Assembly: GCF_009662475.1 (NCBI RefSeq)
Contig: NZ_CP045571.1
Span: 1 to 64,000, forward strand
Source of the DNA: Acidithiobacillus thiooxidans ATCC 19377
GTDB taxonomy: Bacteria > Pseudomonadota > Gammaproteobacteria > Acidithiobacillales > Acidithiobacillaceae
Length of the DNA: 64,000 nucleotides
Direction: 5' to 3'
The translations under genes were made by a program, and so were the position numbers. Positions within the stretch are counted from its first letter, which is position 1; each line of letters starts with the position of its first letter. Of the stretch, positions 8 through 50,040 are shown piece by piece. The notes beneath the pieces are model-generated. The model saw only the letters and a program-made list of their open reading frames with translations, searched no databases and was not told the origin of the DNA.

Positions 8-1366
8 ATGAGCCGTGATTCAAACTTATCCGCGCTGCACAACGGAGATGCCCTTTGGGAAGCGCTCTGCATACAGCTGCAGGAACAGACAACACCTCAG
101 CAGTTCAATACCTGGCTTCGCCCTTTGCGTGGCGAGCTGCATGGTAACGAATTTCATCTGTTTGCCCCCAACCCTTTTGTCATGCAGTGGGTCAGGGAAC
201 GGCTGATGGATTTGCTGGAAGCGGTTCTCGCCGAGCTGGCTCCAGGAATGCTGCTCCGCTTCAATCTGGATACGACAGCGGCGGCTCCTGCACCGGAGCC
301 CCAAAGCAGCGCTGCGCCCAGCCCGGTCAGTACAGATCCGCGTAACGGCAATCGCCTCAATCCCGGCTTTTCCTTTCAATCCTACGTTGAGGGCAAGTCC
401 AACCAGCTCGCCGTAGCAGCAGCGCGACAAGTTTCCGAGCATCCGGGTAAATCCTACAATCCCCTGTACATATATGGGGGAGTCGGTCTGGGTAAAACCC
501 ATCTCATGCAAGCCGTTGGCAATGCCATCCTCCAGCGCAACGCCGACGCCAAGGTGCTTTATGTCAGCGCCGAAGGTTTCATCATGGATATGGTGCGTTC
601 TCTGCAACATAACACCATCAACGATTTCAAGCAGCGTTATCGCAAACTCGATGCCCTACTTATTGATGATATTCAGTTTTTTGCTGGCAAGGATCGCACC
701 CAGGAAGAATTTTTTCATACCTTCAACGCCCTGTTTGATGGTGGCCGACAAATCATCATTACCTGTGATCGCTACCCCAAGGAAGTCGAACATCTCGAAG
801 AAAGACTCCAGTCGCGTTTCGGTTGGGGTCTCACCGTCGCCATTCAGCCTCATGATCTGGAAACCCGTATGGCGATTGTTCTATGCAAGGCTGAAGAAAT
901 TGGCATAGAACTGCCCGAAGAAGTAGCTTTTTTCATTGCCGAAAAAATCCGCTCCCATGTTCGTGAACTGGAAGGGGCGTTAAGGCGGGTCGTCGCCCAC
1001 GTTAACTTTACCCATAAGCCGTACAATCTGGATACTGCCCGGGAAGCCCTGCGGGATCTCATTGACGTCCAGAAACGCATGGTCAGCCTGGAAAATATCC
1101 AGAAAGTCGTTGCCGAATATTTTCATATACGTGGCTCTGACATGCAGTCCAAGCGGCGGAGTCGTAATATTGCCCGCCCCCGCCAAGTCGCCATGTCGCT
1201 CACCAAGGAACTCACCAATCACAGCCTGCCGGAAATCGGTGAGGCCTTTGGTGGTCGCGATCACACCACCGTACTGCATGCCTGCCGACAAATTGAAAAA
1301 CTTCGTCAGGAAGACTCTCAAATCAATGAAGATTATAACAATTTACTGCGGATACTCGGCGCATGA
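8..1366 (+). CDS. dnaA: Chromosomal replication initiator DnaA
   Basis: AAA+ ATPase that binds DnaA boxes and opens the origin. The 452 residues show all four family domains. There is an N-terminal helicase-loading domain (about 1-85), then an Ala/Pro-rich linker (about 90-115). The AAA+ core has Walker A GGVGLGKTHL near 157 and Walker B LLIDDIQFF near 218. The C-terminal DNA-binding domain carries the signature GGRDHTTVLHACRQI. Length is normal. The ATG at 8 is the only sensible start, but only seven bases precede it, so its promoter and ribosome site lie outside the window. It is followed by an origin-like spacer and dnaN, the classical order. Confidence 0.98.
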   Translation: MSRDSNLSALHNGDALWEALCIQLQEQTTPQQFNTWLRPLRGELHGNEFHLFAPNPFVMQWVRERLMDLLEAVLAELAPGMLLRFNLDTTAAAPAPEPQSSAAPSPVSTDPRNGNRLNPGFSFQSYVEGKSNQLAVAAARQVSEHPGKSYNPLYIYGGVGLGKTHLMQAVGNAILQRNADAKVLYVSAEGFIMDMVRSLQHNTINDFKQRYRKLDALLIDDIQFFAGKDRTQEEFFHTFNALFDGGRQIIITCDRYPKEVEHLEERLQSRFGWGLTVAIQPHDLETRMAIVLCKAEEIGIELPEEVAFFIAEKIRSHVRELEGALRRVVAHVNFTHKPYNLDTAREALRDLIDVQKRMVSLENIQKVVAEYFHIRGSDMQSKRRSRNIARPRQVAMSLTKELTNHSLPEIGEAFGGRDHTTVLHACRQIEKLRQEDSQINEDYNNLLRILGA

Positions 1367-7106: not shown

Positions 7107-10100
7107 GTGCTGAATTTGGTTGGTTTTGAATATAAAGAACTTTTTACAGATGAGGGCATTGCGCGTCTGGATCAGGAATTTCTCGACAGTCTGAACAAAG
7201 CGGATAGTTCACTCGCCGAAGCCCTGCATGATTACCGGGCTCAGGGTTTGCTTCCGGCGAGCAAGGCACAAAGCGAATTTCTGCTGCGCCTGGCTCCCCA
7301 TGTGGAACAGTTTATTACCCGCTTATTCGCCCTGGAAAAAGAAGTCTCTGAATTACATACACAAACCCGCAGTCATGATGTGGTCATGGAATTCAAAAAG
7401 CATTTTGTGCTGCGTCGCGCCCGGCGTTATCGCGGAGAATTTCCGGAGACTTTTGCGGATTTGGATCAATGGCTGGATAGCCAGATACGCCAACGCGCCT
7501 GGCCCGATACGGATCGTGAGTGGGCGATTTCCCGGCTTGGTGAAGATTGGCTCAAGGATGAAAATACCCATGCTGAGGAGATTCAGCGCCTGACCCAATG
7601 GTGTGCCCTGATTCTTCAGGACCCACAGGCAGCTCTGGCGGTTACGGGGTGGTCGAGCTTCCGTTTGCCCCAGCGCGTAGATCATGAGGCCCTCGTGCCA
7701 CTCAAAAAGCTCGATCAGGTGCCCGGTACGCCATTTGTAGCGCCCGACGGTACCCTGCGTCGCCGCGACAGCTTTCATCTGACGGATTTGCGCATGGACC
7801 CGCGCAGCGTGCAGAGTGAAGTCCATTATTGTCTGTATTGTCATGATCATGATGGCGATTTTTGCTCCAGGGGATTCCCCGAGAAAAAAGGGGTGCCGGA
7901 ACTGGGCCTGAAGGTTGATCCTCTGGGCGTGACCCTGACGGGCTGTCCCCTCGAAGAAAAAATTTCGGAAATGCAGATTCTCAAACGGGACGGACTGAAT
8001 CTGGCGGCATTGGCCATGGCCATGGTCGATAATCCCATGGTTCCCGCTACCGGCCATCGCATCTGCAATGACTGCATGAAAGCCTGTGTGTACCAGAAGC
8101 AGGACCCGGTCAACATTCCGCAGGTTGAAACCCGCATTTTGACGGATGTCCTCAACCTTCCCTGGGGGATTGAGCTGTATGATTTGCTGACCCGCTGGAA
8201 TCCCTTGCGCGCCGTGCAATTTGCGGCACAACCGTATAATGGGCGCAAGGTGCTGGTGGCAGGCATGGGGCCGGCGGGGTTCACTATGGCCCAACATCTG
8301 CTGCAGGAAGGTTGTGCGGTAGTGGGTATTGATGGACTGAAAATCGAACCGCTGCCGGAAACCTGGTTGACCGCGCCGATTCGTGACTGGAGCACCTTGC
8401 AGGAAGACCTGGACGAGCGGATTCTGCTGGGTTTTGGCGGGGTGGCGGAATATGGTATCACCGTGCGTTGGGACAAGAACTTTCTCAAACTCATTTATCT
8501 GACTTTAGCCCGGCGTCCTGGGTTTCAGATTTTCGGGGGCGTGCGTTTGGGTGGCACCATCACCCTGGAAGATGCCTGGTCTCTGGGGTTTGATCATGTC
8601 TGTATTGCCACGGGTGCGGGTTTGCCCAGAGTGGTTCCTATGGGCGAAAGTCTGGCGCGGGGCATGCGTCAGGCCAGTGATTTCCTCATGGCCCTGCAGC
8701 TGACTGGTGCCGGGAAAAAGAGCAGTCTCGCCAATTTGCAGGTACGCTTGCCCGCAGTGGTCATTGGTGGTGGTCTCACAGCGGTGGATACTGCCACCGA
8801 AGTGCAGGCCTATTACATTCGTCAGGTTGAAAAAGTCCTTGAGCGTTATGAGCAGATGTCCCAGCGCGGCGGGGAGGAAAAAATGCGTGCCGGACTTTCT
8901 GCCGAAGACACGGAAATTCTCGAAGAATTTCTTGCCCACGGGCGCGCCGTTCGCCAGGAAAGGAAACGCGCGCAGGAAAGCGGAGAATCCCCGAATTTTG
9001 TCCCCCTGATTCAATCCTGGGGCGGGGTCACGCTGGCTTATCGCAAGGGTATGCGGCAATCCCCGGCTTATACGCGCAACCATGAAGAATTGATCAAGGC
9101 CATGGAAGAAGGCCTGTATTACGCAGAGGGTCTGGATCCTCTGCGTGCCGAACTGGATACCTATGGACACATCTCCCACATGGTATTCCGGCAGATGCGT
9201 GAAGCAGAAGGTCGTTGGCTGAGCAGTGACCAGGAGTTGCGTTTACCAGCTCGTGCGGTGTTTATTGCGGCGGGAACCGTACCGAATACCATTTATGAAA
9301 GAGAGTATCCCGGTACCCTGCTGCTGGATGGGGATCATTTTCAGACCCATGTGGCCCACGGCAAGAGTGCTCTTCAGGCTGTGCAGGTGGCTGAACACTG
9401 CAAGGCACCCGAAGCCGGCCCGTTTACTTCCTATACAGATGAGCAGGCGCATCGTGTCAGTTTCATTGGTGATACCCATCCGGTGTTTCATGGCAGCGTG
9501 GTCAAAGCTATTGCCTCGGCAAAAGCCAGTTATCCGCAGGTCATGCACAGTCTTAGCGCTCTCGCTCCGGTAGCCCAACATAAGCTGCCGGACTTTCAGG
9601 AAAGCTTGCGGGATTTGCTGACCATGCGGGTCCTGCGCGTGGATCGCAGTAATCCGGCGGTAACCGAAATGTGGATTAAAGCCCCTCTGGCCGCCCGCAA
9701 TTTCCGGCCGGGCCAGTTTTTCCGGCTGCAGACTTTTGAAAGCCATAGCCCGGTTGTGAATAATACCCGCTTGCAGATTCCGGTTCTGACCGTCAGTGGT
9801 GCTGGCGTTGAAGAGGATGCGGTGCGTCTGATGGTACTGCAATGGGGAACCGGGCCGCGTCTGGTAGGGAGCCTGGAACCCGGTGATCCCTTGATATTAA
9901 TGGGTCCCACTGGAGCACCGACGGATATTCCCCAGAATAAAACCATTCTGGTGGTGGCAGGACGCTGGGGCGCTGCGGTCATGCTGGATATCGGTCCCGC
10001 GCTCCGCGCTGCGGGTAATCGGGTCCTGTATGTCGCCGCTTTGGGTAAAGCCAGCGAACTGGATAATCAGGCGGAACTGGAAGAAGCGGCGGATCAGATT

Positions 10101-10595
10101 ATCTGGTGCACGGGGAGTGGTCCGCTGATTGCAACCCATCGTCCTCAGGACTTGAGTGTCGAAGCCAGTGATATGGTGGAGTTGTTACGTGCTTACGGAG
10201 CCGCCGAACTTCCCGGTCAGAGTAAGGTGCCGGGGGCGGTAGCCTTGGATCAGGTGGATCGCTTGATGGTCATGGGCTCTACTGGATTATTAAAAGGCTT
10301 TCAGCAGGCCCTGAAAGGATCTCTCAGTGCTTATTTCCGCAGTGATCTGGAAGCGGTAGCCACAGTAGGTAGCCCGATGCAGTGTATGCTCAAAGGCGTC
10401 TGCGCCCAATGTTTGCAGTGGCAGATTGATCCGGAAACCGGCAAACGGACCAAAGCGGTATTTTCCTGCGCCGGCCAGGACCAGCCCCTGGCATGGGTGG
10501 ATCTGGATAATCTGACCGCACGCCAGAGCCAGAATCGCTTGCTGGAAAGGATATCCAGTCAGTGGCTGGATCATTTACGCGCTGAGAGTAATTAG
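7107..10595 (+). CDS. Large FAD/NAD(P) and iron-sulfur oxidoreductase (GltD-like plus PyrK-like fusion)
   Basis: A 1162-residue multidomain redox protein. After an unassigned N-terminal region (about 1-230) comes a cysteine-rich stretch (YCLYCHDHDGDFC, TGCPLEE, ICNDCMKACVY) like the Fe-S region of glutamate synthase small chains. An FAD fold follows (VLVAGMGPAGF, near 378), then an NAD(P) fold (VVIGGGLTAVDTATE, near 550). From about 835 a ferredoxin-reductase-like domain begins (NFRPGQFFRLQ). It ends in a PyrK-type 2Fe-2S motif (CMLKGVCAQC plus a later Cys, near 1092). The start is GTG at 7107 behind GGGGAG. Substrate is unknown; electron bifurcation or transfer between NAD(P)H and ferredoxin is inference. 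Confidence 0.75.
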   Translation: MLNLVGFEYKELFTDEGIARLDQEFLDSLNKADSSLAEALHDYRAQGLLPASKAQSEFLLRLAPHVEQFITRLFALEKEVSELHTQTRSHDVVMEFKKHFVLRRARRYRGEFPETFADLDQWLDSQIRQRAWPDTDREWAISRLGEDWLKDENTHAEEIQRLTQWCALILQDPQAALAVTGWSSFRLPQRVDHEALVPLKKLDQVPGTPFVAPDGTLRRRDSFHLTDLRMDPRSVQSEVHYCLYCHDHDGDFCSRGFPEKKGVPELGLKVDPLGVTLTGCPLEEKISEMQILKRDGLNLAALAMAMVDNPMVPATGHRICNDCMKACVYQKQDPVNIPQVETRILTDVLNLPWGIELYDLLTRWNPLRAVQFAAQPYNGRKVLVAGMGPAGFTMAQHLLQEGCAVVGIDGLKIEPLPETWLTAPIRDWSTLQEDLDERILLGFGGVAEYGITVRWDKNFLKLIYLTLARRPGFQIFGGVRLGGTITLEDAWSLGFDHVCIATGAGLPRVVPMGESLARGMRQASDFLMALQLTGAGKKSSLANLQVRLPAVVIGGGLTAVDTATEVQAYYIRQVEKVLERYEQMSQRGGEEKMRAGLSAEDTEILEEFLAHGRAVRQERKRAQESGESPNFVPLIQSWGGVTLAYRKGMRQSPAYTRNHEELIKAMEEGLYYAEGLDPLRAELDTYGHISHMVFRQMREAEGRWLSSDQELRLPARAVFIAAGTVPNTIYEREYPGTLLLDGDHFQTHVAHGKSALQAVQVAEHCKAPEAGPFTSYTDEQAHRVSFIGDTHPVFHGSVVKAIASAKASYPQVMHSLSALAPVAQHKLPDFQESLRDLLTMRVLRVDRSNPAVTEMWIKAPLAARNFRPGQFFRLQTFESHSPVVNNTRLQIPVLTVSGAGVEEDAVRLMVLQWGTGPRLVGSLEPGDPLILMGPTGAPTDIPQNKTILVVAGRWGAAVMLDIGPALRAAGNRVLYVAALGKASELDNQAELEEAADQIIWCTGSGPLIATHRPQDLSVEASDMVELLRAYGAAELPGQSKVPGAVALDQVDRLMVMGSTGLLKGFQQALKGSLSAYFRSDLEAVATVGSPMQCMLKGVCAQCLQWQIDPETGKRTKAVFSCAGQDQPLAWVDLDNLTARQSQNRLLERISSQWLDHLRAESN

Positions 10596-10794
10596 CCTAA
10601 AAACGGCAGTTGCCATGGGTGCTTTTTGCTCCATTGTTCCTTGCCTGTTGTTCTAGGGCTCATCCTGCTGTCAGGAGAGAACTCGCCCTGCGGGCTCAAA
10701 CAGCTCTCCTGACGGGCGCAGGATTTCACCAAGAACAACAACGGCTCGAAACAAAAGTCGCTGCAAAGCACCCACAGCAACTGCCATTTTTAGG
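10596..10794. repeat. 199-bp palindromic MITE-like element
   Basis: Two imperfect inverted arms of about 85 bases face each other. The outer ends are CCTAAAAACGGCAGTTGC (10596-10613) and, on the minus strand from 10794, CCTAAAAATGGCAGTTGC. Inner matching blocks are TTGTTGTTCT, ATCCTGC and GTCAGGAGAG. The element begins directly after the stop codon of the oxidoreductase gene. The flanks ATTAG (left) and ATTAA (right) resemble a short target duplication. It could be a non-autonomous transposon or a strong bidirectional hairpin that ends the convergent transcripts. It contains no plausible gene. Confidence 0.65.
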
Positions 10795-10854
10795 ATTAAA
10801 GCTAATAAAACCCGAAAGCAGCAGTTGGCCTGGAGAGTGTTTTGCAGCGACTTT
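10754..10854. repeat. Second hairpin formed with a third copy of the arm motif
   Basis: AAAGTCGCTGCAAA (10754-10767), inside the right arm of the palindromic element, is matched perfectly by its inverse TTTGCAGCGACTTT (10841-10854). The segment from about 10818 is a degenerate third copy of the arm (GCAGTTGG, then GTTTTGCAGCGACTTTG), in the same orientation as the left arm. The tract thus holds three copies of one motif in orientations plus, minus, plus. Confidence 0.6.
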
Positions 10855-10876
10855 GCCCCGAGTCTTTGATAAAAAC

Positions 10877-11128
10877 TTAATGCTGATCAGGAAATAGGAT
10901 GTTCAGCTCCAGCACCTCAAAGTCGCCTTTGCGTTCCATACTGACCTTGATGTTGTTTTTATCCACGGGAATATACTTGGCGATAACCGTTAGTAATTCT
11001 TCTTGCAGGGCAGGTAAAAAATCAGGTCCCCCTTCTTCCCTTTCATGGGCAAGAATAAGTTTTAAACGGTCTTTGGCCACATTGGCCGTTTTTTTCCGGG
11101 AACCGAGAATATAATCAAGTATGGACAT
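10877..11128 (-). CDS. minE: Cell division topological specificity factor MinE
   Basis: Drives pole-to-pole oscillation of MinCD so that the division ring forms at mid-cell. The 83 residues align along their length with MinE: SILDYILGSRKKTANVAKDR (MinD-binding and membrane helix), then KYIPVDKNNIKVSME and LELNILFP (dimerisation sheet). The start at 11128 is chosen because GGAGG stands 5 bases upstream; a TTG 12 bases earlier would put the ribosome site inside the gene. Last gene of minCDE, 1 base after the minD stop. Confidence 0.93.
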   Translation of the reverse strand: MSILDYILGSRKKTANVAKDRLKLILAHEREEGGPDFLPALQEELLTVIAKYIPVDKNNIKVSMERKGDFEVLELNILFPDQH

Positions 11129-11129
11129 G

Positions 11130-11939
11130 TCAGCCTCCAAAAAGCTTTTTGAAAAAACCCACTTTCGGAGCCTGAATAAATCGGAGGGGTTTCTCTTCGC
11201 CCAGGAAGCGGGCTACTACATCCTTATAGGCTTCAGCCACATCGGTGTTTCCCATATGCACGGCGGGAATACCCTGGTTGGAAGCCTGCAGCACCACTTC
11301 TGACTCGGGAATGACACCCAGCAGTGGTGTCCTCAATAATTCCTTGACGTCTTCCAGGGAAAGCATTTCACCGTCTTCCACCCGCTTGGCGGAATAACGG
11401 GTCAACAACAAATGTTCCTTGACGGGTTCTTCTCCCTGTTCGGCTCGACGTGAGCGTGCAGCAAGAATCCCCAGAATCCGATCGGAGTCGCGTACTGAAG
11501 AAACTTCCGGGTTGGTGACGACAATCGCCTCATCCGCATGATACAAGGCCATCAGCGCTCCTGATTCAATGCCAGCCGGCGAATCACAGACAATATAATC
11601 AAAGTCTTTGCGCAGTTCGTCCATAACCGTGGTAACCCCTTCAACGGTCAAGGCATCCTTATCGCGGGTTTGTGATGTGGGGAGCACATACAGGTTTTCG
11701 CAGTGTTTGTCTTTGATCAGGGCCTGCTGGAGCTTTGCCTCACCCTGAATGACGTTGATGAGATCGTAAACTACCCGACGCTCGCAACCCATAATGAGAT
11801 CAAGATTGCGTAAACCCACGTCAAAATCTATGACGACCGTTTTATACCCGCGCAGCGCGAGGCCGCTGGCAAAAGCTGCGCTGGTGGTGGTTTTGCCGAC
11901 GCCACCTTTCCCTGAAGTTATGACGATTATTTTGGCCAC
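11130..11939 (-). CDS. minD: Septum site-determining ATPase MinD
   Basis: Membrane-associated ParA-family ATPase that carries MinC to the membrane and is released by MinE. The deviant Walker A motif (GKGGVGKTTTSAAFA) is at the N-terminus. DFDVGLRNLDLIMG and CDSPAGIESGA follow. The C-terminal amphipathic membrane anchor is VGFFKKLFGG. The length of 269 residues is standard. It lies 19 bases after minC and directly before minE. Confidence 0.97.
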   Translation of the reverse strand: MAKIIVITSGKGGVGKTTTSAAFASGLALRGYKTVVIDFDVGLRNLDLIMGCERRVVYDLINVIQGEAKLQQALIKDKHCENLYVLPTSQTRDKDALTVEGVTTVMDELRKDFDYIVCDSPAGIESGALMALYHADEAIVVTNPEVSSVRDSDRILGILAARSRRAEQGEEPVKEHLLLTRYSAKRVEDGEMLSLEDVKELLRTPLLGVIPESEVVLQASNQGIPAVHMGNTDVAEAYKDVVARFLGEEKPLRFIQAPKVGFFKKLFGG

Positions 11940-11958
11940 GTTTTTTTTCTCCGGATCA

Positions 11959-12702
11959 TTATGAATTTAAGGGGGTAATATGCAGTTGCTCGTCCCGGCT
12001 GTAAACCTGCGCAGGTTTTCCCCAAAGGGGGTGGTCCGGTTCGAGGGTCCGATATAATCCTGCGATGGAAACCAGTTCTGCCTCCAGTGCCATGCAAAAT
12101 ATACGGGCATTTTCATCTCCGTTGACTCCGGCCAAAGCGCGACCTCGCAGCGGTCCGTAAACATGAATGTTGCGGTCAGCGATGATTTCCGCTCCGGCGT
12201 TGACGGTTGCCATACAGACCAGATCGCCATTACGCGCGTAATTTCGTTGCCCACTGCGCACCGGGTGTTCAATCAGCAGGCTGGCAGATGGTGCTGGGCT
12301 GGGAGCAGTGGACGGCTGGCTTAAGGTTGCTTCGGGTTTTGCCGGAGCGCGCTGGGCTTGTCCACGCAATACCGGAAGGTGAAGGGATGTGGCCAGCAAC
12401 TGATGCGTTGTTGCGGCATTGCGAATGCCTACAGGCATCCAGCCTGCATCCCTTAATACCTGAATGATTTTTTCGAGAGCCAGTGGGGCTTCTTCAGGAA
12501 TGCCGCTCAGATCCAAGACCAGCGGTGATTCCTGATGGAATGCCGCAGCAGCAGGATGACGGCGGTGTTCTTCGTCAATGCGCGCCTTGAGCAAGGTCGG
12601 ATCATTACTTTCCAACTGTAAAACAGAAAGCGTAAAGACGCGTCCACTCAAGCGTAAGGGGGAAAATTCGTGAGAGCCCACTTCTGTTTTTTTAGCAGAC
12701 AT
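11959..12702 (-). CDS. minC: Septum site-determining protein MinC
   Basis: Inhibitor of FtsZ assembly, positioned by MinD. The N-terminal inhibitory domain is about residues 15-110. It is joined by a Pro/Ala/Ser-rich linker (about 125-145) to the beta-helix domain, which shows GDLVCMATVNAGAEIIADRN and VYGPLRGRALAGVNG. The length of 247 is normal. The ATG start codon overlaps a perfect parS palindrome, so ParB binding could affect min expression (inference). Confidence 0.93.
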   Translation of the reverse strand: MSAKKTEVGSHEFSPLRLSGRVFTLSVLQLESNDPTLLKARIDEEHRRHPAAAAFHQESPLVLDLSGIPEEAPLALEKIIQVLRDAGWMPVGIRNAATTHQLLATSLHLPVLRGQAQRAPAKPEATLSQPSTAPSPAPSASLLIEHPVRSGQRNYARNGDLVCMATVNAGAEIIADRNIHVYGPLRGRALAGVNGDENARIFCMALEAELVSIAGLYRTLEPDHPLWGKPAQVYSRDEQLHITPLNS

Positions 12703-12717
12703 GTTTCACGTGAAACA
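12702..12717. promoter_or_regulatory. Perfect parS centromere site
   Basis: TGTTTCACGTGAAACA is an exact match to the 16-bp ParB-binding palindrome. It lies about 12.7 kb from dnaA and about 37 kb from parAB, between fdxA and minC, touching the minC start codon. Origin-proximal parS sites are expected for a ParABS segregation system, and parA and parB are both in this window. Confidence 0.92.
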
Positions 12718-12732
12718 TTTCATGATCTCCGT

Positions 12733-13059
12733 TTATACCTCTTTCAGGAGTGGACGCTTATCGGTTTTGCCGTTCCAGGTTTCTGCATCGGGTAGAGCAC
12801 TTTTCTTGCGCAAAATGACAGGCCATTTTTTGGTGAGTTCAGCATTGATGGCGGTGAAGTCGCGCTGGTCTTCCGGCACATCGTCTTCGGCAAAAATGGC
12901 ATCTGCCGGGCATTCGGGAATACAGGCGGCGCAGTCAATACATTCGTCAGGATCAATAACCAGAAAATTGGGGCCTTCATGAAAGCATTCTACGGGACAC
13001 ACTTCTGCACAATCAGTGTATTTGCACTGGATACAGTTTTCGGTAACGACGTAAGTCAT
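12733..13059 (-). CDS. fdxA: Seven-iron ferredoxin (3Fe-4S/4Fe-4S)
   Basis: Small electron carrier of the FdxA / Azotobacter ferredoxin I type. The cysteine pattern is [19 protein letters not shown] for the first region and [14 protein letters not shown] for the second, followed by a C-terminal extension to 108 residues as usual for the family. Its redox partner is not evident here. The start overlaps the end of topA by four bases, so it is probably read on the topA transcript. Confidence 0.9.
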
Positions 13060-15575
13060 GGGTTGTCTACTTTTTTACTGGCGCGCTTGCGTGCTGCGGG
13101 CGCGGGTTTGTCGACGGTAGTTGTTGAGGCCTTGGTGGTTTTTTTGGCTGTGGTTTTCTTTGCAGAAGCCGTTTTCGTGGTCTTTTTCGCGGTACTTTTC
13201 GCTGTCTTGCTGGCGGCTTTGCGCGCTGGAGCTTTGGCGGGCGCGGCGCGTTTTTCCCGGGGAGGAGGCGGCGTATAGTCAACCAGCAGTGCAGCAATTT
13301 CTGCTTCACTGGCGGTTACCTGAAAATGGAATCCGCATTCTGGCTGAGGACAGGCGAGTTGTTCTCCCAGTCGTTTTCCACTTTTTTCAATCATGATCGG
13401 CCAGGCACAACGTGGACAGGCTTTGGCAACCGGAGGCCCCCAGACAGCGTAAGTGCATTTTGGATAAGTGTTGCAGGAATAAAATACTTTGCCATAACGA
13501 CTGCGCTTTTCTACCAGTTCGCCTTCTCCACATTGAGGACAGGTGACGCCGGAAGACTTGGGCTGGGTCAACGGTTCAATGTGCTTACATTCCGGATAAC
13601 CACTGCAGGAAATAAAGCGCCCGTAGCGCCCGGTTTTATACACCAGGGGTTTTCCGCAGTCGGGACAGTCGCGTCCAACGGGTTCAGGGGCTTCCCGGGG
13701 CCCGTCCACAGGACGGGTGTACTTGCAATCGGGGTATCCTGAACAGGCGACAAAACGACCATGCCGTCCAAGGCGCAGAAATAGTGGCTTTCCACATTCA
13801 GGACAATTTTCGTCCATGGCTTCGCTGGTGGCTTCGGCGCGACTGACGTTGGCTTTTTCATCCAGCAAGGAGCGAAATGGTCCCCAAAATTCGTTCAGTA
13901 CCGGCCGCCATTGCTTTTCGCCACGGGAGATGGCATCCAGCTCATCTTCCATACCTGCGGTAAAGTTGTAGTCCACATAACGCTCAAAATGATTGGACAG
14001 AAAGCGTCCAACGACTCTGCCCAGATCGGTGGGCCTAAAGCGACGTTGTTCCGTTTCTACATATTCGCGATTTTGCAGGGTCTGAATAATGCTGGCGTAA
14101 GTAGAGGGCCTCCCGATGCCATGGGCTTCCAGAGTTTTTACCAGCGTCGCATCACTGTAGCGGGGTGGCGGTTCGGTAAAATGCTGTTCCGGATCTACGC
14201 CCTGAACTTGCGGCTGGTCGCCTTGTTCCAGAGGCGGGAGAATACGATTATTTTCATCTTCGTCCGTATCATCTTTCCCTTCCAGATAAACCGCCATGAA
14301 GCCGGGGAAAGTAACGGTCGAACCGTTGGCACGTAGCGTCCAGTGGGTCCCGGCATCCATGTCTACAGCGACCATATCCAGGCGGGCCGGAGCCATCTGA
14401 CAGGCGACGCTGCGTTTCCAGATCAGATCATATAGCCGCCACAAATCCTTTTCGAGAATACCCTGCAGCATTTCCGGCGTTCGACTGATGTCCGTCGGGC
14501 GCACAGCTTCATGGGCTTCCTGGGCATTTTTGGTTTTGGTTTTGTAACGACGTGGGCTTTCAGGGACAAATTCATGACCATAATGCCCGTCGATGAAACC
14601 GCGAATATCGGCAATGGCTTCTTCGGAAAGGTTGACGGCATCCGTACGCATGTAACTGATCAGGCCGACGGTTTCACTCCCAATGTTTATGCCTTCATAA
14701 AGCTGCTGGGCGACGCGCATGGTGCGGCTGGCGTTGAAACCCAGTTTGCGGGAGGCTTCCTGCTGCAGGGTGGAGGTTGTAAAAGGCGCGGCAGGCTGAC
14801 GTTGCCGGCTTTTACGCTCCACTTCGCGGACCTGAAGCGCTTGCTGCTGCATATCCGCTTCCATACTGCTGCGTATGGATTCTGCCTGGGTTTCATTGTT
14901 GATATCAAATTGTTCCAGTTTTTTGTTTTGCCAGTGCGTCAAACGCCCGGAAAACTCACTGTCGGCGTGCAGCAGGCGTGCCGCAATCGTCCAATATTCC
15001 TGGCTGACAAATGCCTCAATTTCGTCTTCCCGCTCGCAGATCAGACGCAGAGCGGCGCTTTGCACCCGACCGGCAGAAAGCCCGGGACGCACTTTGCGCC
15101 ACAGCAGCGGCGACAAATTGAAGCCCACCAGATAGTCCAAGGCGCGCCGGGCCTGTTGGGCATTGACCAGATCCATGGCGATTTCGCGGGGATTGGCAAT
15201 GGCTTCCTGCACGGCCTTTTTGGTGATTTCGTGAAAAACCACGCGCTGGGCGGGCTTGTTTCCCAACTGCTTGCGCTCGCGCAGCAGTTCTACCAAATGC
15301 CAGGAAATGGCCTCGCCTTCGCGGTCCGGATCGGTGGCGAGCCAGAGTTTATCAGCCTTGCGCAATGCCTTGATAATGGCTTCTACATGCCGTTCATTGC
15401 GCTCGATGGCTTCATAACGCATGGCAAAATCCTGCTCAGGATCAACGGCCCCTTCTTTGGGGCGAAGATCACGAACGTGACCATAAGAGGCTAGAACTTC
15501 AAAATCATCCCCGAGATATTTCTGGATGGTTTTGGCTTTGGCAGGAGATTCGACAATTACGAGCTGATGGGCCAT
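13056..15575 (-). CDS. topA: DNA topoisomerase I
   Basis: Type IA topoisomerase that relaxes negative supercoils. The TOPRIM domain has [17 protein letters not shown] and [14 protein letters not shown]. The active-site tyrosine lies in [11 protein letters not shown]. The C-terminus has four Cys4 zinc-ribbon modules ([36 protein letters not shown]). It ends with a Lys/Ala/Thr-rich tail of about 65 residues resembling histone H1, likely a non-specific DNA-binding tail. The length is 839 residues. It follows smg by 3 bases and overlaps fdxA. Confidence 0.96.
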
Positions 15576-15578
15576 AGG

Positions 15579-16016
15579 TCAGTGCAGTATCCGGGTTCCG
15601 TCTGTGTCCAGTAAGGCGTCTACCCAGAGTGCTTCCGGGCCGGGATCGTTGGCCATTACCATGAAGGCAACCCAGTCAAGGGTTTCCATATCCATATCCT
15701 CAAGGTCGAGGGCCAGTAAGCGATCAATGATCCGCTCCCGCATGGCGCCGTTAATGACGCCTAGGCGTTCCCAGTCATGCAGTTGACCGCGTGCTGCCAC
15801 AGAAAGGTTCTGCAGCTCGTAGGGATGATAGGCGCGCAGCGCTCGGGGACTGGTATCTTCCTGTTCTTCAACAGCAAAACCTTCCATCCAGTCGAGGGCG
15901 CGCTGAATGTCCGCGTCGGGAAAACCCACGGCACGAAGATGATCTTCAATGACCGCGTCGTCTTCGTCGTCGAGGTGATCCAGTAGGTATGTAATTATGT
16001 CTATGACGTCTTCCAT
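15579..16016 (-). CDS. smg: Smg / DUF494 family protein
   Basis: A 145-residue acidic protein matching the Smg family (DUF494): EDVIDIITYLLDHL at the N-terminus and a conserved C-terminal part with LDWVAFMVMAN. The family is usually found between dprA and topA, as here, and its function is unknown. It is 10 bases after dprA and 3 before topA, clearly in the same transcript. Confidence 0.88.
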   Translation of the reverse strand: MEDVIDIITYLLDHLDDEDDAVIEDHLRAVGFPDADIQRALDWMEGFAVEEQEDTSPRALRAYHPYELQNLSVAARGQLHDWERLGVINGAMRERIIDRLLALDLEDMDMETLDWVAFMVMANDPGPEALWVDALLDTDGTRILH

Positions 16017-16026
16017 GCCAGAGCCT

Positions 16027-17124
16027 TCAGGGTGCAGGAGGGAGGCGACAGAACCGGCCGCCGGGGCTGGCCGTGAGGTAACCTGATATTTCCATTTCCA
16101 AGAGGATGGCCGAAAGCTCGCCCAGCGTCAATCCACAACGCGTAGCAATTTCTTCTGCTGTCAGCGGATCAAAGTTCATGGCTGCCCAGACTTTCGCCTG
16201 ATGGGGATCGTCAGGTTGCCAATGATCCGCTGCTGTTACCGGTCGGGCCTGGCATAATGCGCCAAATAGCGGCCCCAGCTCGCTCAACACATCCTCGGCA
16301 CTTTCCACCAGTTTGGCACCGTCACGAATCAGACGATGCGGACCTCGGGACAGCGGTGAGTGGATCGAACCGGGTACCGCAAATACTTCTCGCCCCTGCT
16401 CCATAGCCAGGCGGGCAGTAATCAGGGAGCCGCTGTTTTCTGCCGCCTCAACAATCAGTACCCCCAGACTGAGTCCGCTGATGATGCGGTTGCGACGTGG
16501 AAACAGGCCACTATGCGGTCCGGTTTCCGGGGCCTGTTCACTGACGAGCAGGCCATGCTCGATAATCTGGTGCGCTAACTGTAAATGCGTGCGCGGATAA
16601 ATCAGATCGGCACCGGTGCCCAGTACGGCAACAGTGCCGCTGACTAGTGCACCGCGATGGGCGGCAGCGTCAATGCCCAAGGCCAGGCCACTGGTAATGA
16701 TCAGCCCGGTTTCACCAAGACTACGGGCAAAAGCCTCGGCGGTAGCTGCCCCTACAGCCGTTGCCGAGCGGCTGCCGACAATAGCCAGCATGGGCTGGTT
16801 CAGACAGGAACGCTGTCCCCGAATAAATAACAGGGGCGGTGGGTCGGGAATTTGTCGCAGCAAAGGCGGATAATCGGGATCCGTCCAGCGACATAAATCC
16901 GTATCGGGACTATTCAGCCAGCGCCGGTCAGCAGGACGGATAAGGTCTTCGGGGTCTTTTTGCAGAGCCTGGATCTGCTTTGCGGACAAACCGAGGTCTT
17001 GTAACAGGCCGGCCCCCGTTTGAAAGCAGGCGGCGGCATGGCTAAATCGCTCCAGTAAAGCCTGTTGCCGCTGTGGCCCCAAACCGTTAATTCGGCAAAG
17101 TGCCAGCCAGGCGGCATCAGACAT
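16027..17124 (-). CDS. dprA: DNA-processing protein DprA
   Basis: Binds incoming single-stranded DNA and loads RecA during transformation. It has the DprA/Smf Rossmann fold with VGSRSATAVGAATAEAF, TSGLALGIDAAAHRGAL, AVLGTGADLIYP and FPRRNRIISGLS. A C-terminal winged-helix module (LTAEEIATRCGLTLGELSAIL) and an N-terminal helix-hairpin-helix-like region are present. The length of 365 is normal. Its first base is the last base of the upstream LysM gene frame, so translation is probably coupled. Confidence 0.93.
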   Translation of the reverse strand: MSDAAWLALCRINGLGPQRQQALLERFSHAAACFQTGAGLLQDLGLSAKQIQALQKDPEDLIRPADRRWLNSPDTDLCRWTDPDYPPLLRQIPDPPPLLFIRGQRSCLNQPMLAIVGSRSATAVGAATAEAFARSLGETGLIITSGLALGIDAAAHRGALVSGTVAVLGTGADLIYPRTHLQLAHQIIEHGLLVSEQAPETGPHSGLFPRRNRIISGLSLGVLIVEAAENSGSLITARLAMEQGREVFAVPGSIHSPLSRGPHRLIRDGAKLVESAEDVLSELGPLFGALCQARPVTAADHWQPDDPHQAKVWAAMNFDPLTAEEIATRCGLTLGELSAILLEMEISGYLTASPGGRFCRLPPAP

Positions 17125-21008: not shown

Positions 21009-21610
21009 CCTCTGTGCTGGTTTTTGCGCGAGCGGGTGGCATGATGCGCAAGCGCGGCGCGGTTTGGCTGGGCCTGATCCTGGGCTTGTGGTGTTTTGTG
21101 GGTTCTGGCTGGGCTTTGGCAGGTACCGCGTTTCACGTGGAACAGTTACAGGTCGCGCCAGAAATGAACCGGGTGAAAATCAATGCTCAGGTGCAAATCA
21201 CTAAAGAAGACCTGCTGCAGGAAATTCTCGATCAGGGCCAGACCCTGATCTGGGTCGTAAAAGCGGAATGGCGGGAACCCGAACCATTTTCCTTTATTAC
21301 CGGTCTGGGCACCCATGCGCAAAAAGAAGCCCGCTGGCAAATTCACTATTATCCGCTGACCAATCAATACGCACTGAAAAATGCAGCAGGCACCATGCGC
21401 TTATTCAATCATTGGCAGGATGTTGTCAGCGTCCTGAAGCAGATTCATGATTTCGAGTTGCCTTTGCAACAGGGCGCGGCACGGGGACGGGTAGCGCTGC
21501 GGGTTTATGTGGATATACAGGCTCTGCCTGTCCCTCTGCGCCTGCGTGCATTGCTGGATCACTGGAAACTGGAGTCCCCATGGACCGTCAGCGCGCTCCT
21601 TTCAAACTGA
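21005..21610 (+). CDS. DUF4390 family exported protein
   Basis: A 201-residue protein with a signal-like hydrophobic segment (GAVWLGLILGLWCFVGSGWA) and an extracytoplasmic remainder. It matches the DUF4390 family, commonly located between rsmB and ntrY. Function is unknown; the context suggests a link to NtrY sensing (inference). ATG 21005 overlaps rsmB; ATG 21041 would shorten the positively charged leader and is also possible. The end overlaps ntrY by 31 bases. A parS-like sequence lies inside it. Confidence 0.8.
   Translation: MTSVLVFARAGGMMRKRGAVWLGLILGLWCFVGSGWALAGTAFHVEQLQVAPEMNRVKINAQVQITKEDLLQEILDQGQTLIWVVKAEWREPEPFSFITGLGTHAQKEARWQIHYYPLTNQYALKNAAGTMRLFNHWQDVVSVLKQIHDFELPLQQGAARGRVALRVYVDIQALPVPLRLRALLDHWKLESPWTVSALLSN
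21129..21144. promoter_or_regulatory. parS-like site (14 of 16)
   Basis: CGTTTCACGTGGAACA differs from the perfect parS by two bases (positions 1 and 12). It lies inside the DUF4390 gene. Natural parS sites with two mismatches are often bound by ParB, but one occurrence could be chance. Confidence 0.45.
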
Positions 21611-37697: not shown

Positions 37698-38174
37698 ATG
37701 ACCCGGAATGGCCGTTTGAGCATTATTGTCTTCGCCATCATTTCCCTGAGTGCCTGCGCCAAGCTGCCCGTCAAGGTGGCTGAACCCGCTGCGCCAGCAG
37801 CCAAAGCAAATACCAAGGCCGCCGCGCCGGACATGCACAGCAGCCAGACGGCCCTCGACTGGGCCGGAACCTACGTGGGGACCCTGCCCTGTGCCGATTG
37901 TCCCGGAGTGCGCGAAACCCTGGTGCTGCACAAAGACCAAACCTATGCCCTGAGCACTCACTATGTAGACCGTCCGGGTTCGGCCTTTTCGCGCAGTAAC
38001 AGCTTCACCTGGATCAATGGTCAAACTATCCGGCTGGAAGGCATGCAACAACCCATGTACTTTCGGGTAGGAGAAAACCAGCTTATTCAGTTGGGAATGG
38101 ATGGCCAGCCCATTACCGGACCAATGGCGGCAAAAATGGTGTTGAAGAAAATGCAAACAGGAAAAATCCAATGA
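37698..38174 (+). CDS. NlpE-like outer-membrane lipoprotein
   Basis: A 158-residue lipoprotein. The signal peptide ends in a lipobox (SLSAC, lipidated Cys about residue 19), followed by an Ala/Pro/Lys-rich linker. The NlpE N-terminal beta-barrel domain shows [21 protein letters not shown] with the family's CxxC. NlpE senses envelope or copper stress in enterobacteria; that role here is inference. The stop overlaps the hsdM start by four bases (ATGA). It marks the left boundary of the restriction island. Confidence 0.82.
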
Positions 38175-39727
38175 CCAGCATCCAGCAACGCGCCGCCCTG
38201 CAACGACAAATATGGGCGATTGCCAATGATGTACGCGGCGCAGTCGATGGCTGGGATTTCAAGCAATACGTGCTAGGCACCCTGTTTTACCGCTTCATCA
38301 GCGAAAACTTCGCTATTTATATCGAAGCCGATGACGACAGCATCCACTACGCCGAGTTGCCGGACAACATCATCACCCCGGACATCAAAGACGATGCCAT
38401 CAAAACCAAGGGCTATTTTATTTACCCCAGCCAGTTGTTTGCCAATGTGGCCGCCCGCGCCAACAGCAACGAAAGCCTGAATACGGATTTGGCCGATATT
38501 TTTGCCGCTATCGAAAATTCTGCCAGCGGTTACCCCTCCGGGCGCGACATCAAAGGCCTGTTTGCCGACTTCGACACCACCAGCAATCGTCTGGGCAACA
38601 CCGTCAAAGATAAAAACACCCGCCTCGCTGCCGTGCTCAAAGGTGTTGCCGGTCTGGATTTTGGTGATGCGCATAGCGGTGACTTTGAAAGTAACCACAT
38701 CGACTTGTTTGGCGATGCCTACGAATTTCTCATTTCCAACTACGCCGCCAATGCCGGTAAATCGGGCGGTGAGTTTTTTACACCACAACATGTTTCCAAA
38801 CTCATCGCCCAGTTGGCCATGCACAAGCAAACCCGCGTCAACAAGATTTACGATCCTGCCTGCGGCTCCGGCTCCCTGCTACTGCAAGCCAAAAAGCATT
38901 TTGACGCGCACATTATCGAAGACGGGTTTTACGGGCAGGAACTCAACCACACCACCTACAACCTGGCGCGGATGAATATGTTCCTGCACAACATCAATTA
39001 CGACAAATTCAACATCCAGTTGGGGGACACCCTCATCGCCCCCCATTTTGACGGCGACAAGCCCTTTGATGCCATCGTCTCCAATCCGCCCTATTCCGTA
39101 AAATGGATCGGCAGTGACGACCCCACCCTCATCAACGACGACCGCTTTGCCCCGGCGGGCGTACTGGCCCCCAAATCCAAAGCCGACTTTGCCTTTGTAC
39201 TGCACGCCCTCAGTTACCTTTCAAGCCGTGGCCGCGCCGCCATCGTCTGTTTTCCTGGTATTTTTTACCGGGGCGGTGCCGAGCAGAAAATCCGTCAATA
39301 TCTGGTGGATAACAATTTCGTCGAAACCGTCATCTCACTCGCGCCCAACCTGTTTTATGGCACCACCATCGCCGTGACCATTTTGGTGCTCTCCAAACAC
39401 AAGACAGACACCACCACCCAGTTCATTGATGCCAGTGGCCTGTTCAAAAAAGAAACCAACAACAACCTGCTGCTGGATACCCACATCGACGAGATCATGG
39501 CCGTGTTCGACAGCAAGGCGAATGTCGAGCACTTTGCCCGTTCCGTACCGTTTGAGCAGGTTGCCGCCAATGATTACAACCTCTCGGTGAGCAGCTATGT
39601 CGAAGCCCGCGACACCCGCGAGGTGGTGGATATTGCAGAGCTCAATAGCGATTTGAAAACCACCGTGGCAAGAATCGACCAGCTACGCAAAGAGATAGAT
39701 GCCATTGTGGCCGAGATTGAGGCATGA
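38171..39727 (+). CDS. hsdM: Type I restriction-modification DNA methyltransferase HsdM
   Basis: N6-adenine methyltransferase subunit. An N-terminal helical domain ([20 protein letters not shown]) precedes the SAM motif ([14 protein letters not shown]) and the catalytic motif NPPYSVKW. The length of 518 is standard. It pairs with HsdS for specificity and with HsdR for cleavage. The HsdR gene here is frameshifted, so HsdM-HsdS may work only as a methylase. Four-base overlaps couple it to the genes on both sides. Confidence 0.96.
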
Positions 39728-40764
39728 ACGATCACCCCATCGCACTCACACAACCGCCCGCAGGCTATGCCGACTGGCTGGCCGAATTAAAAGCGCGCAT
39801 TCACCGCGCCCAACAACACGCCACGCTCGCCGTCAACCGCGAACTGGTTTTGTTGTACTGGCAAATTGGCCAAGACATCCTGACACGGCAGGCCGCACAA
39901 GGCTGGGGCGCGAAAGTGATCGAGCGGCTGGCGCATGATTTGCGCAACGCTTTTCCCGAGATGAAGGGCTTCTCCCGCGCCAACCTCATGTATATGCGTG
40001 CCTTTGCCGAGGCCTGGCCAGACGAGCAAATTGTCCAACAGGCTGTTGGACAATTGCCTTGGGGACACAATCTGGTCTTGCTGACCCGACTGAAGCAACC
40101 GGAACAGCGTCTGGCCTATGCCCAGGCCGCCATCGAACAGGGTTGGTCGCGCAATGTGCTGAATATCCACATTGAAACCCGACTTCTTGAACGCACCGGC
40201 AAAGCGGTTACCAACTTTGCCGAACGCCTGCCCCCGCCGGGTAGTGATTTAGCGCGGGAATCGCTCAAAGACCCCTATCTGTTCGATTTTCTCAATGTGG
40301 GCAAAGAAGCCGACGAACGCGAAATTGAATCGGCGCTAGTCGAGCACATTACCCACTTTTTGCTGGAATTAGGCGCAGGCTTTGCCTTTGTGGGGCGGCA
40401 GGTGTTGCTGGATGTAGGCGGTGACGAATTCTTTATTGACCTGCTGTTTTATCACCTCAAATTGCGCTGCTATGTCGTGATTGAACTCAAGACCGGTAAA
40501 TTCAAGCCCGAGCATCTAGGGCAATTGGGTTTTTACATGACGGCGGTGGACAAGCAAATCAAGCATGAACTCGATAACGCCACCATCGGCCTGCTGCTGT
40601 GCAAAAGCAAAAACAAAGTGGTGGCTGAATATGCCCTGGGCGATAAAACCCAGCCCATGGGCATAGCTGAATATAAACTCGTGGAAGCCCTCCCCGAAAA
40701 CCTTAAAACCAACCTGCCCAGCATTGAACAGATAGAGCGGGAATTGCAGGGAGATGAGGCATGA
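39724..40764 (+). CDS. DUF1016 / YhcG-type PD-(D/E)XK nuclease
   Basis: A 346-residue protein of the YhcG family. The N-terminal DUF1016 domain has [15 protein letters not shown] and [17 protein letters not shown]. The C-terminal nuclease-like domain has [21 protein letters not shown], consistent with a PD-(D/E)XK core. Members often sit inside type I restriction operons, but their role is unsettled. It overlaps hsdM and hsdS by four bases each. A perfect 13-bp inverted repeat lies inside at about 40030-40056. Confidence 0.85.
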
Positions 40765-41993
40765 GCAGCGGGAATTTTTTGGACAAGCTGCTGGATGGGG
40801 TGGCGGTGGAGTGGATCGAGGTGGGCGAGTTAATTTCACCCCAGCGCGGGAGAAGACTCGTCAAAAGCCAATTAGAAGAAGTCGGTAGTTATGCTGTCTA
40901 TCAGAACAGCATGAAGCCGCTCGGCTACTACCATAAAAGTAATGCTCAAGCCGGGGCAACCTTTGTGATTGTTGCCGGCGCGGCGGGCGAGATTGGTTTT
41001 AGCGATGTTGCTTTCTGGGCCGCAGATGATGTCTATTTCTTCCCAGAAGCAAATGCTGTTAATAACAAATATCTGTATCACTTTCTTCTAACGAAACAGC
41101 ATGAAATTTCATCTCAAGTACGCAGGACAAGTGTTCCTCGCCTATCAATAGCTGCGGTTGAAAAGCTAAAAATCCCCATCCCCTGCCCAGAAAACCCCAA
41201 AAAATCGTTGGAAATCCAAGCCGAAATCGTTCGCATTCTGGACACCTTCACCGAGCTGACCACCGAGCTGACCACCGAGCTGACCACCGAGCTGACCACC
41301 GAGCTGACCACCGAGCTTAATCTACGCAAAAAACAATACAACCACTACCGCGACCAATTGTTGAGTTTTGAAAACGGCGAAGTGGAGTGGAAGACGTTGG
41401 GAGAAGTGGCCTTAGATTTTGGTAGAGGCAAATCTAAACATCGTCCTAGAAATGATGAAAAATTGTATGGCGGTGATATACCTTTCATCCAGACCGGAGA
41501 TATTAGAAATGCGGCGCATGTCATTACACAATATAGCCAGACCTATAGCGAGCTTGGGCTAATACAAAGCAAATTGTGGCCTAAAGGGACATTGTGCGTA
41601 ACTATTGCTGCTAATATTGCTGAAACATCCATTTTAGGATTTGATGCATGTTTTCCTGATAGCGTCATCGGTTTTATAGCTAATCCTGAAAAGACCAGTT
41701 CAGGTTATGTTGAATACCTACTGTCTTCATTAAAAACAAAGCTAGAAGAAAAAGGCCAGGGCAGTGCCCAAAGCAATATAAATCTAGGCACATTTGAAAA
41801 TCTAAAATTACCTTTCCCCTCATTGGCCGAACAAGCCCGCATCGTCGCCATCCTCGACAAGTTCGACGCACTGACCACCTCCCTCACCGAAGGCCTACCC
41901 TGCGAAATCGAACTGCGCCAAAAGCAATACGATTATTACCGCGATCTGCTGCTCCGCTTTCCCAAGCCAACTCAAGCAGGAGAATGCCCATGA
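40761..41993 (+). CDS. hsdS: Type I restriction specificity subunit HsdS
   Basis: Sequence-recognition subunit of 410 residues with two target-recognition domains: about 1-160 (ending in KLKIPIPCPE) and about 210-365 (ending in NLKLPFPSLAEQARIV). Each is followed by a conserved helical spacer (KKQYNHYRDQLL and QKQYDYYRDLL). The central spacer has a repeated Thr-Glu-Leu-Thr run encoded by a 12-bp tandem repeat. Base composition in the second recognition domain is more AT-rich than the neighbours, as is common for hsdS exchanged by recombination. Confidence 0.95.
   Translation: MSSGNFLDKLLDGVAVEWIEVGELISPQRGRRLVKSQLEEVGSYAVYQNSMKPLGYYHKSNAQAGATFVIVAGAAGEIGFSDVAFWAADDVYFFPEANAVNNKYLYHFLLTKQHEISSQVRRTSVPRLSIAAVEKLKIPIPCPENPKKSLEIQAEIVRILDTFTELTTELTTELTTELTTELTTELNLRKKQYNHYRDQLLSFENGEVEWKTLGEVALDFGRGKSKHRPRNDEKLYGGDIPFIQTGDIRNAAHVITQYSQTYSELGLIQSKLWPKGTLCVTIAANIAETSILGFDACFPDSVIGFIANPEKTSSGYVEYLLSSLKTKLEEKGQGSAQSNINLGTFENLKLPFPSLAEQARIVAILDKFDALTTSLTEGLPCEIELRQKQYDYYRDLLLRFPKPTQAGECP
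41250..41318 (+). repeat. hsdS: 12-bp tandem repeat in the HsdS spacer
   Basis: ACCACCGAGCTG is repeated five times (41259-41318; the last copy ends in T), preceded by a partial 9-base unit (41250-41258). It encodes six TEL triplets separated by Thr. The repeat lies exactly between the two recognition domains. Unit-number change keeps the frame and alters the spacer by four residues, as in the EcoR124I/R124II pair. Confidence 0.9.
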
Positions 41994-46626: not shown

Positions 46627-46676
46627 CACTTTTTTGGATATTGCAAAAACCACCCCCGGGCGCGGATAATCAGCGG

Positions 46677-49278: not shown

Positions 49279-50040
49279 ATGCGCATCGTTGCTGTTGCCA
49301 ATCAGAAAGGTGGCGTGGGAAAAACCACGACTGCCGTCAATCTGGCTGCCGGACTTGTCCAGACGGGCAAGCGGGTGCTGCTGGTTGATCTGGATCCGCA
49401 AGCCAATGCCAGCACCGGGTTGGGCCAGGTGGGTAATACGGCGAGCAGCATTTATCACGTATTGCTGGGGGAATTACCGCTCTGCGCGGTGCTGCATGCA
49501 GTATCCCCTGCCGGACTTTTTCTCGCACCCTCCAGCCCCGATCTGGCCGGGGCCGAAGTGGAAATCTACCCGCGCGCAGATCGTGAACAGCATCTGAAAA
49601 GAGCTTTGGCCGAGGCGTCGGGCTTTGATTATGTCCTCATTGATTGCCCGCCAGCCCTGAATATGCTGACCATCAATGCCCTGGTAGCGGCAAACCGTGT
49701 GCTGATTCCCATGCAATGCGAATATTATGCCCTGGAAGGCCTCACGCAGTTGCTGAATACCGTCCGGCGGGTGCGCGCCCAGCTGAACCCTCATCTGGAA
49801 GTGGATGGCCTGTTGCGGACTATGTTCGACAACCGCAACCGTCTTTCCTCGGAGGTCGGTCAGGAGTTGGAACGGCATTTTCCGGATAAGCTCTATCAAA
49901 CGGTTATCCCCCGCAATATTCGCCTTGCCGAAGCCCCCAGCTTTGGCCGCGCTGCTCTGGAATACGATCCTTCCTGCGCGGGTTCCCTGGCCTATCAGGG
50001 TTTGGCCAAAGAATTCCTGCAACGGGAGGGGCCAAAATGA
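49279..50040 (+). CDS. parA: Chromosome partitioning ATPase ParA (Soj)
   Basis: Walker-type ATPase that moves ParB-parS complexes. The deviant Walker A motif NQKGGVGKTTTAVNLAA lies at residues about 7-23; DLDPQANAST and LIDCPPALNMLTINAL follow. From ATG 49279 the protein is 253 residues, the chromosomal ParA size. A longer frame from 49108 overlaps rsmG and is rejected. The stop overlaps the parB start (ATGA). Confidence 0.95.
   Translation: MRIVAVANQKGGVGKTTTAVNLAAGLVQTGKRVLLVDLDPQANASTGLGQVGNTASSIYHVLLGELPLCAVLHAVSPAGLFLAPSSPDLAGAEVEIYPRADREQHLKRALAEASGFDYVLIDCPPALNMLTINALVAANRVLIPMQCEYYALEGLTQLLNTVRRVRAQLNPHLEVDGLLRTMFDNRNRLSSEVGQELERHFPDKLYQTVIPRNIRLAEAPSFGRAALEYDPSCAGSLAYQGLAKEFLQREGPK

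Follow-up and report, generated by a model that had tools for sequence, protein, structure and literature searches.

A predicted chromosomal parS site fused to the minC start codon in the Acidithiobacillus-like family

Gene content of the origin region and its parS sites

The window (the whole stretch of DNA analysed, bases 1-64000 of a 3,415,726-base single-contig genome) contains dnaA, dnaN, recF, gyrB, minCDE, fdxA, topA, smg, dprA, fmt, rsmB, ntrY, mnmG, rsmG, parA, parB, and the atp operon; gene names beyond the profile-scanned ones come from reading the translations. The genes and sites on which the analysis centres are listed below, and genomes and loci of relatives are cited by G and L numbers.

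8-1366, plus strand: dnaA (TIGR00362, 581.6 bits, cut-off 343.9), origin marker and start of the chromosome
1367-1619: dnaA-dnaN intergenic region, the likely oriC, with DnaA-box-like sites at 1385 (one mismatch) and 1464 (exact)
10877-11140, minus strand: minE (TIGR01215, 93.4 bits, cut-off 49.3)
11130-11939, minus strand: minD (TIGR01968, 352.4 bits, cut-off 212.9)
11959-12702, minus strand: minC (TIGR01222, 170.5 bits, cut-off 95.25)
12702-12717: perfect 16-bp parS TGTTTCACGTGAAACA, an exact consensus match
12733-13059, minus strand: fdxA, a ferredoxin gene directly upstream of parS-minC (NF045490, 163.3 bits, cut-off 135)
13056-15575, minus strand: topA, overlapping fdxA (TIGR01051, 853.9 bits)
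21129-21144: second parS, two mismatches, in the 5' part of a gene between rsmB and ntrY that we take to be DUF4390-like; conserved in orthologues
48511-48526: third, weaker parS-like site, two mismatches, at the 3' end of mnmG; 28 orthologues compared
49279-50040, plus strand: parA, adjoining parB (ParA-family matches, NF041546, below the curated cut-off)
50037-50885, plus strand: parB, of chromosomal type and carrying the specificity residues R and G (TIGR00180, 192.8 bits, cut-off 58.45)

Beside minE, positions 7107-10595 encode a 1162-aa flavoprotein, part glutamate-synthase-beta-like and part dihydroorotate-dehydrogenase-electron-transfer-like, whose best match, NF005128, stays under the cut-off; orthologues of the protein were found in G007 and G017. 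A type I restriction-modification cluster, read from translations as HsdM/HsdS-like plus RhuM-like, occupies 38171-42997, close to where the cumulative GC skew falls (36-40 kb), and is possibly an insertion. The mnmG gene of the window (46641-48551) belongs to an mnmG-rsmG-parAB-atp block 46-57 kb to the right of dnaA, while in G007 mnmG (G007:C1:2895397-2895945) lies on the other side, some 85 kb left of dnaA, indicating a rearrangement of the origin region within the genus.

The exact parS match at 12702-12717 lies 11-13 kb from dnaA and oriC, and together with the sites at 21129-21144 and 48511-48526 it makes up all matches to the parS consensus with at most two mismatches in the 3,415,726-base genome, where a reversed control pattern gave none. 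A search of the whole genome with three mismatches reached noise level (10 places vs 12 in the control). All three sites fall in the first 49 kb of the 3.4 Mb chromosome, which starts at dnaA; since the cumulative GC skew (80 kb examined) has its minimum near 2.8 kb and DnaA-box-like sites are present in the dnaA-dnaN gap, each of them is located about 50 kb or less from the likely origin. The dispersed, origin-near parS set that had been predicted from the sequence is therefore borne out. In the Acidithiobacillus-like family, 29 of 29 genomes possess a parS match with at most two mismatches and nine of the 29 have a control match. In view of these counts, a chance match that is no ParB site can practically be set aside.

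The predicted ParB has its best PDB matches among ParB/Spo0J proteins, and KorB also matches. According to a hand-read alignment, it keeps the R and G equivalent to Caulobacter R173 and G201, which were described as absolutely conserved in ParB orthologues (PMC7383237), where the Noc pattern is given as Q173/K179/K184/R201. At the four positions of that pattern the protein has R, Q, R, and G, and it scores 218 bits against a Noc cut-off of 315, so that a Noc/NBS identity was rejected. The 16-bp palindrome, the clustering of sites at the origin, a chromosomal parAB pair with parS-type residues, and evolutionary conservation, which are among the features by which the parS class is recognised, were found here. 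Five more ParB-family matches occur elsewhere in this chromosome, G000:C1 (628527, 1743658, 1769140, 2171223, and 2380365), of which four are over the cut-off, and they possibly mark integrated plasmid-like elements.

The junction between parS and minC

The minC gene runs along the minus strand from an ATG at 12702-12700 and therefore shares one base of its start codon with the palindrome. Features of the junction are as follows.

12700-12702, minus strand: minC start codon ATG, whose A is the last base of parS; register read in 28 genomes
12706-12708, minus strand: TGA within parS that is in frame with minC in all 28 genomes and precedes its ATG by two codons
12706-12709, minus strand: GTGA in the minC-side half of parS, Shine-Dalgarno-like, 3 nt from the ATG; duplex energy -4.0 kcal/mol
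12706-12723, minus strand: possible five-codon leader ORF (MKCFT, then stop) ending on the parS TGA, with GGAG at 12727-12730; seen in close relatives

The minus strand reads TGTTTCACGTGAAACATG, the terminal ATG of which is the minC start. The original prediction had placed a perfect parS at the minC start codon; the match proved exact and the overlap closer than claimed, the site being fused to the codon itself. ParB loading at 12702-12717 would accordingly cover the minC start, as had also been proposed.

The arrangement was compared in 29 genomes of the family. A minC gene was found in 28 of them, from four genera; the remaining one, G027, is 69% complete and gave no minC match, and L044 was dropped, being another minC fragment in G012. 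Every one of the 28 minC genes begins at a parS with 0-2 mismatches whose last base is the A of the ATG, so the position in relatives, which had been suggested as a check, turned out to be kept throughout. The stretch CGTGAAACATG is invariant over these genes, while in the flanks of parS the commonest base reaches 0.32-0.89 in ungapped columns (60 upstream, 43 downstream), a range in which length changes inflate the apparent divergence because the columns were anchored on parS without gaps. All 28 genomes keep parS at one and the same distance from the ATG, although the spacing between the fdxA stop and parS ranges from -19 to 15 nt and minC carries an N-terminal extension of 8 to 24 codons ahead of the MinC domain (measurable in 25 of 28). 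An fdx start lies upstream of minC at all 28 loci, and the closest named minC relatives, among the best 80 of 157, are on Acidithiobacillus contigs with 92-95% identity, which marks the genome of the window as Acidithiobacillus-like.

The in-frame TGA inside parS rules out a start upstream of the minC ATG. Downstream of it, no other in-frame start precedes the MinC domain in 24 of the 28 genes (in one of the 24 the motif was not found, and the judgement covers the part before codon 30); an alternative start occurs in G008, G003, G020, and the window's own genome (GTG at codon 8), which counts against a double role of parS as minC start. Over codons 2-19 of minC, variation falls mostly on third positions (52 vs 21 and 12 at the other two, in 14 hand-picked, non-independent pairs).

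Variation of parS at minC is confined to the distal half, with T replaced by G or C at position 1 and changes at positions 3, 5, and 7. A by-eye count by genus groups gave about six presumed independent substitution events in the distal half and none in the minC-side half; such a split has a probability of about 0.016 if both halves were equally free (0.5^6, one-sided), and it is a small count. In L042 (G024) and L043 (G023) the fdxA frame crosses parS and stops at an ATGA over the minC start, so that in these two genomes the site also codes for the C-terminal end of the ferredoxin. In L040 (G017) and L041 (G018) the fdxA start also reads GCGTGAAACATG, which is the minC start context, without the palindrome.

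GTGA matches a generic anti-Shine-Dalgarno string, one not taken from this genome, over 4 bp, and its distance to the ATG is the standard aligned spacing. The pairing is weak: among 18 other genes of the window scored likewise against that string, 12 pair better than minC (minD -6.6 and parB -10.8 kcal/mol, for example) and six pair worse (fdxA -2.0, mnmG -3.1), a result that speaks against ribosomal use of the segment. With the 15 bases upstream of the ATG all taken up by parS, no room is left for another ribosome-binding segment; the half-site GTGAAAC is then the only sequence that can serve minC in this capacity, and on this basis we call parS the putative translation-initiation region of minC. 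The leader ORF, which ends 3 nt before the minC ATG, suggests that termination-reinitiation might contribute.

A palindrome in a leader might alternatively act as an RNA hairpin that controls minC translation, with ParB playing no part. The 16-mer can indeed fold into a 6-bp stem extending to the start codon (-3.9 kcal/mol), but four of the 28 genomes lose the stem with no compensating change, which argues that the palindrome is not kept by RNA folding; the exact parS consensus, the clustering at the origin, and the sibling sites all point to ParB. The hairpin reading was therefore rejected, and we regard it as highly improbable.

We read 12702-12717 as a genuine chromosomal parS, the most conserved of its set, which became fused to minC in the family ancestor and doubles as the minC translation-initiation region, and we put the probability of this reading at roughly 0.85. 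According to this model, ParB-CTP would load at the site and slide outwards over minC and fdxA, and ParB together with ParA, and probably SMC, would segregate the origin region. On the mRNA, GTGA of the minC-side half would act as a weak Shine-Dalgarno segment and AAC as spacer, with the ATG overlapping the last parS base. Serving at once at the DNA and the mRNA level, the sequence would be fixed in its position. Both ParB binding at this parS, expected from established ParABS biology, and the ribosomal use of GTGA are what we infer, and the invariance of the minC-side half could also reflect ParB constraint plus shared ancestry, as the 28 genomes represent one family and 17 of them one genus.

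Sibling sites and the taxonomic range of the fusion

The gene around 21129-21144 gave no NCBIfam match in the profile scan. Its parS site has one to three mismatches in 14 of 14 readable orthologues, and the codons TTT CAC GTG are kept in 13 of the 14, with protein identity down to 54%; the orthologues L263 and L264 are too short at the site, and the gene was unmatched in 13 of 29 genomes. In G002, G017, G018, G023, and G024, where the gene was not found, a parS with one or two mismatches is present in the rsmB-ntrY gap, suggesting an old age for the second position as well. The second parS of G024 (L265) reads GGTTTCACGTGAAACATG and its ATG opens ntrY; according to starts read by hand, ntrY begins 3 nt beyond this point in G023 and at a greater distance in G017 and G018. 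The fusion of a parS to a start codon is thus not strictly limited to minC: the fused context has apparently been used twice as a start (minC and ntrY), and the constant register appears at minC alone. The ntrY case cuts both ways for our reading, as it indicates that parS can abut a start codon with no link to Min.

The mnmG site has two to four mismatches in 28 of 28 orthologues (three or four in 10 of them), and its conservation may partly reflect the protein motif IHVKR. This overlap with a conserved protein motif, along with the mismatches, weakens the case for it as a strong centromere site. Of the whole set, the minC site alone has at most two mismatches wherever its gene was found. It is the lone match at this threshold in G007, G008, G014, G015, and G028 (the last judged from a single match being counted there), whereas G003 and G004 each have just one other such match, with a broken CACGTG core.

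Further sites were observed in several relatives. In G022 (L170, 10694-10709) a second parS with two mismatches follows the minE match at a distance of about 40 bp, which places a parS at either end of minCDE; G021, G025, and G026 also show a second match, spaced by the same 1.8 kb from the minC site. A one-mismatch parS, TGTTCCACGTGAAACA, is found in L272 (G005:C13:1600-4600), a stretch without rsmB or ntrY matches.

In two genomes of the sister family, G029 and G030, minCDE and parS are on different contigs, neither topA nor fdxA adjoins minCDE, and no parS site with up to three mismatches was detected in the 9 kb read around each minCDE; the parS of G030 lies within recF. Among the best 80 of 157 minC relatives from named genomes, 21 loci carry parS at minC, all from Acidithiobacillus and look-alike MAGs; these loci (L075-L095) mostly sit on contigs of the family genomes already counted and so are not independent of the 28 of 28 count. 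The other 59 of those 80 loci, from Halomonas-group, Coxiellaceae, Mariprofundaceae, Chromatiaceae, and others, have no parS-like site better than four mismatches up to 5 kb on each side.

A survey of 369 genomes of the class for exact parS followed by TG, an 18-mer search that misses degenerate parS and in which the Acidithiobacillus-like family is represented by G000 and G018 only, returned 23 genomes and 25 places. The ATG opens at least 100 codons at three of the 25 places (six frames scanned): minC, a frame running into gyrB from 14 codons before its usual-looking start (L216), and a 113-codon frame with no Pfam match. The possible extended gyrB is the sole recognisable gene besides minC that is opened in this way in the class. 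In the order, seven further parS-like places end in ATG, and one of them opens a gene, the ntrY of G024; the place in G002, also in the rsmB-ntrY gap, is out of the ntrY frame and opens 190 codons overlapping ntrY, and five open 2-41 codons. A general habit of parS to precede an ATG was rejected, as such an ATG rarely opens a gene in either sample. In the samples searched, parS fused at minC is by sequence comparison a derived trait of the Acidithiobacillus-like family.

These surveys bear on a simpler explanation, namely that parS is kept as a centromere only, that minC happens to start at its edge with neither affecting the other, and that the coincidence was frozen by descent. One ancestral event would suffice, and the carriers found belong to one family; parS followed by TG arises by chance in the class, mostly with no gene behind it, and the single gene-opening place in the order tells the same way. 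Against this stand the constant register amid variable gaps, the one-sided conservation, the want of any other ribosome-binding segment, and the ntrY start, which, unlike that of minC, shifts between genomes. We consider a purely passive coincidence unlikely.

Possible consequences for minCDE expression

Transcription of minCDE was considered from the layout upstream. A sigma-70-type consensus scan of 10600-16200 gave seven sites in all vs 3.7 (sd 2.1) in shuffles, with no sigma-70-like minus-strand match between the fdxA start and minC, and so gave no sign of a dedicated minC promoter of this type. The overlap of fdxA with topA, the 30-nt gap to minC, and the lack of a promoter-like site in between suggest that minCDE would be transcribed by read-through from topA-fdxA. 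RNA polymerase would then run into loaded ParB immediately ahead of minC, which makes a roadblock likelier than promoter occlusion. By hindering polymerase that arrives from topA-fdxA, ParB on parS could make minCDE output track its occupancy; that this effect is of measurable size we propose tentatively, at less than even odds.

A further explanation is that parS serves as a regulatory operator, at which ParB controls minCDE by roadblock or local silencing and ties division inhibition to origin duplication and ParB occupancy, the fusion being kept for this control. It is compatible with the reading of the site as a parS that doubles as translation start. The position kept in 28 of 28 genes accords with it, as do the second parS past minE in G022 and the 1.8 kb-spaced sites of G021, G025, and G026. 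There are precedents as well: ParB bound to the intergenic parS3 and parS4 was reported to repress adjacent Pseudomonas aeruginosa promoters (PMC5521831), comCDE of Streptococcus pneumoniae to respond to a parS 5 kb away, and deletion of parB1 in Vibrio cholerae to alter three genes in the bound region (PMC7022226). However, the V. cholerae effect was lost when the promoters were placed on a plasmid, and genes adjacent to parS were described as unchanged for Bacillus subtilis Spo0J (PMC7022226). The lack of a sigma-70-like match between fdxA and minC and the location of the sibling sites, in coding sequence (mnmG and the DUF4390-like gene) or, in one case, at ntrY, also count against an operator. 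On balance we find this role possible and somewhat doubtful.

At its furthest, the idea would turn the centromere into a division switch: the more ParB is loaded at the origin, the more its presence on the minC start would reduce minCDE output, so that MinCDE dosage would read out the state of replication and segregation, the fusion being kept for the coupling; in some relatives both ends of minCDE would apparently be under ParB. We rate this as unlikely.

Known systems resemble the arrangement in part. The P. aeruginosa sites parS3 and parS4, upstream of PA0011 and PA0013, are likewise origin-proximal, intergenic, and directly before genes (PMC5521831); they act on promoters of other genes, whereas the parS studied here takes in the first base of the start codon of a division-site gene and apparently lies within an operon. 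In S. pneumoniae, the single parS(-1.6 deg) was also reported to modulate a nearby operon via ParB, but that operon, comCDE, is a competence operon 5 kb away, and the account in PMC7022226 reports no overlap with a start codon. KorB of plasmid RK2, which was described as a ParB-family DNA-sliding clamp doubling as a transcriptional repressor (PMC11790492) and which matches this ParB in the PDB search, differs in being a plasmid regulator with its own operators and the partner KorA.

Noc and SlmA link nucleoid position to the division site via DNA-bound division inhibitors. To our knowledge, the known links between segregation and division site are mostly protein-protein, and the coordination of the two processes is an open question. 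MipZ is described as another such link, which differs from a centromere sequence at a min gene start, and in Deinococcus radiodurans the reported link is a protein-protein interaction of ParB with MinC (PMC7022226). Set beside these protein-protein links and DNA-bound inhibitors, the case here stands apart in that a min gene start and a centromere share their sequence. In the literature searched, which was judged by titles and left subscription papers mostly outside, no title reports a parS overlapping the minC start. We regard the site as probably a true parS in a new arrangement, for which ParB control of minCDE is plausible.

An 18-bp sequence would thus be both a centromere site and the start of the gene for a Z-ring inhibitor, throughout the family and, in the samples searched, not at minC outside it. 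It is a clear-cut example of two unrelated constraints acting on a single stretch of DNA, and the fusion makes a cis-acting link from ParB to Min testable by point mutations that separate the functions. For these acid-loving bacteria, it may give chromosome segregation a possible handle on the place of division.
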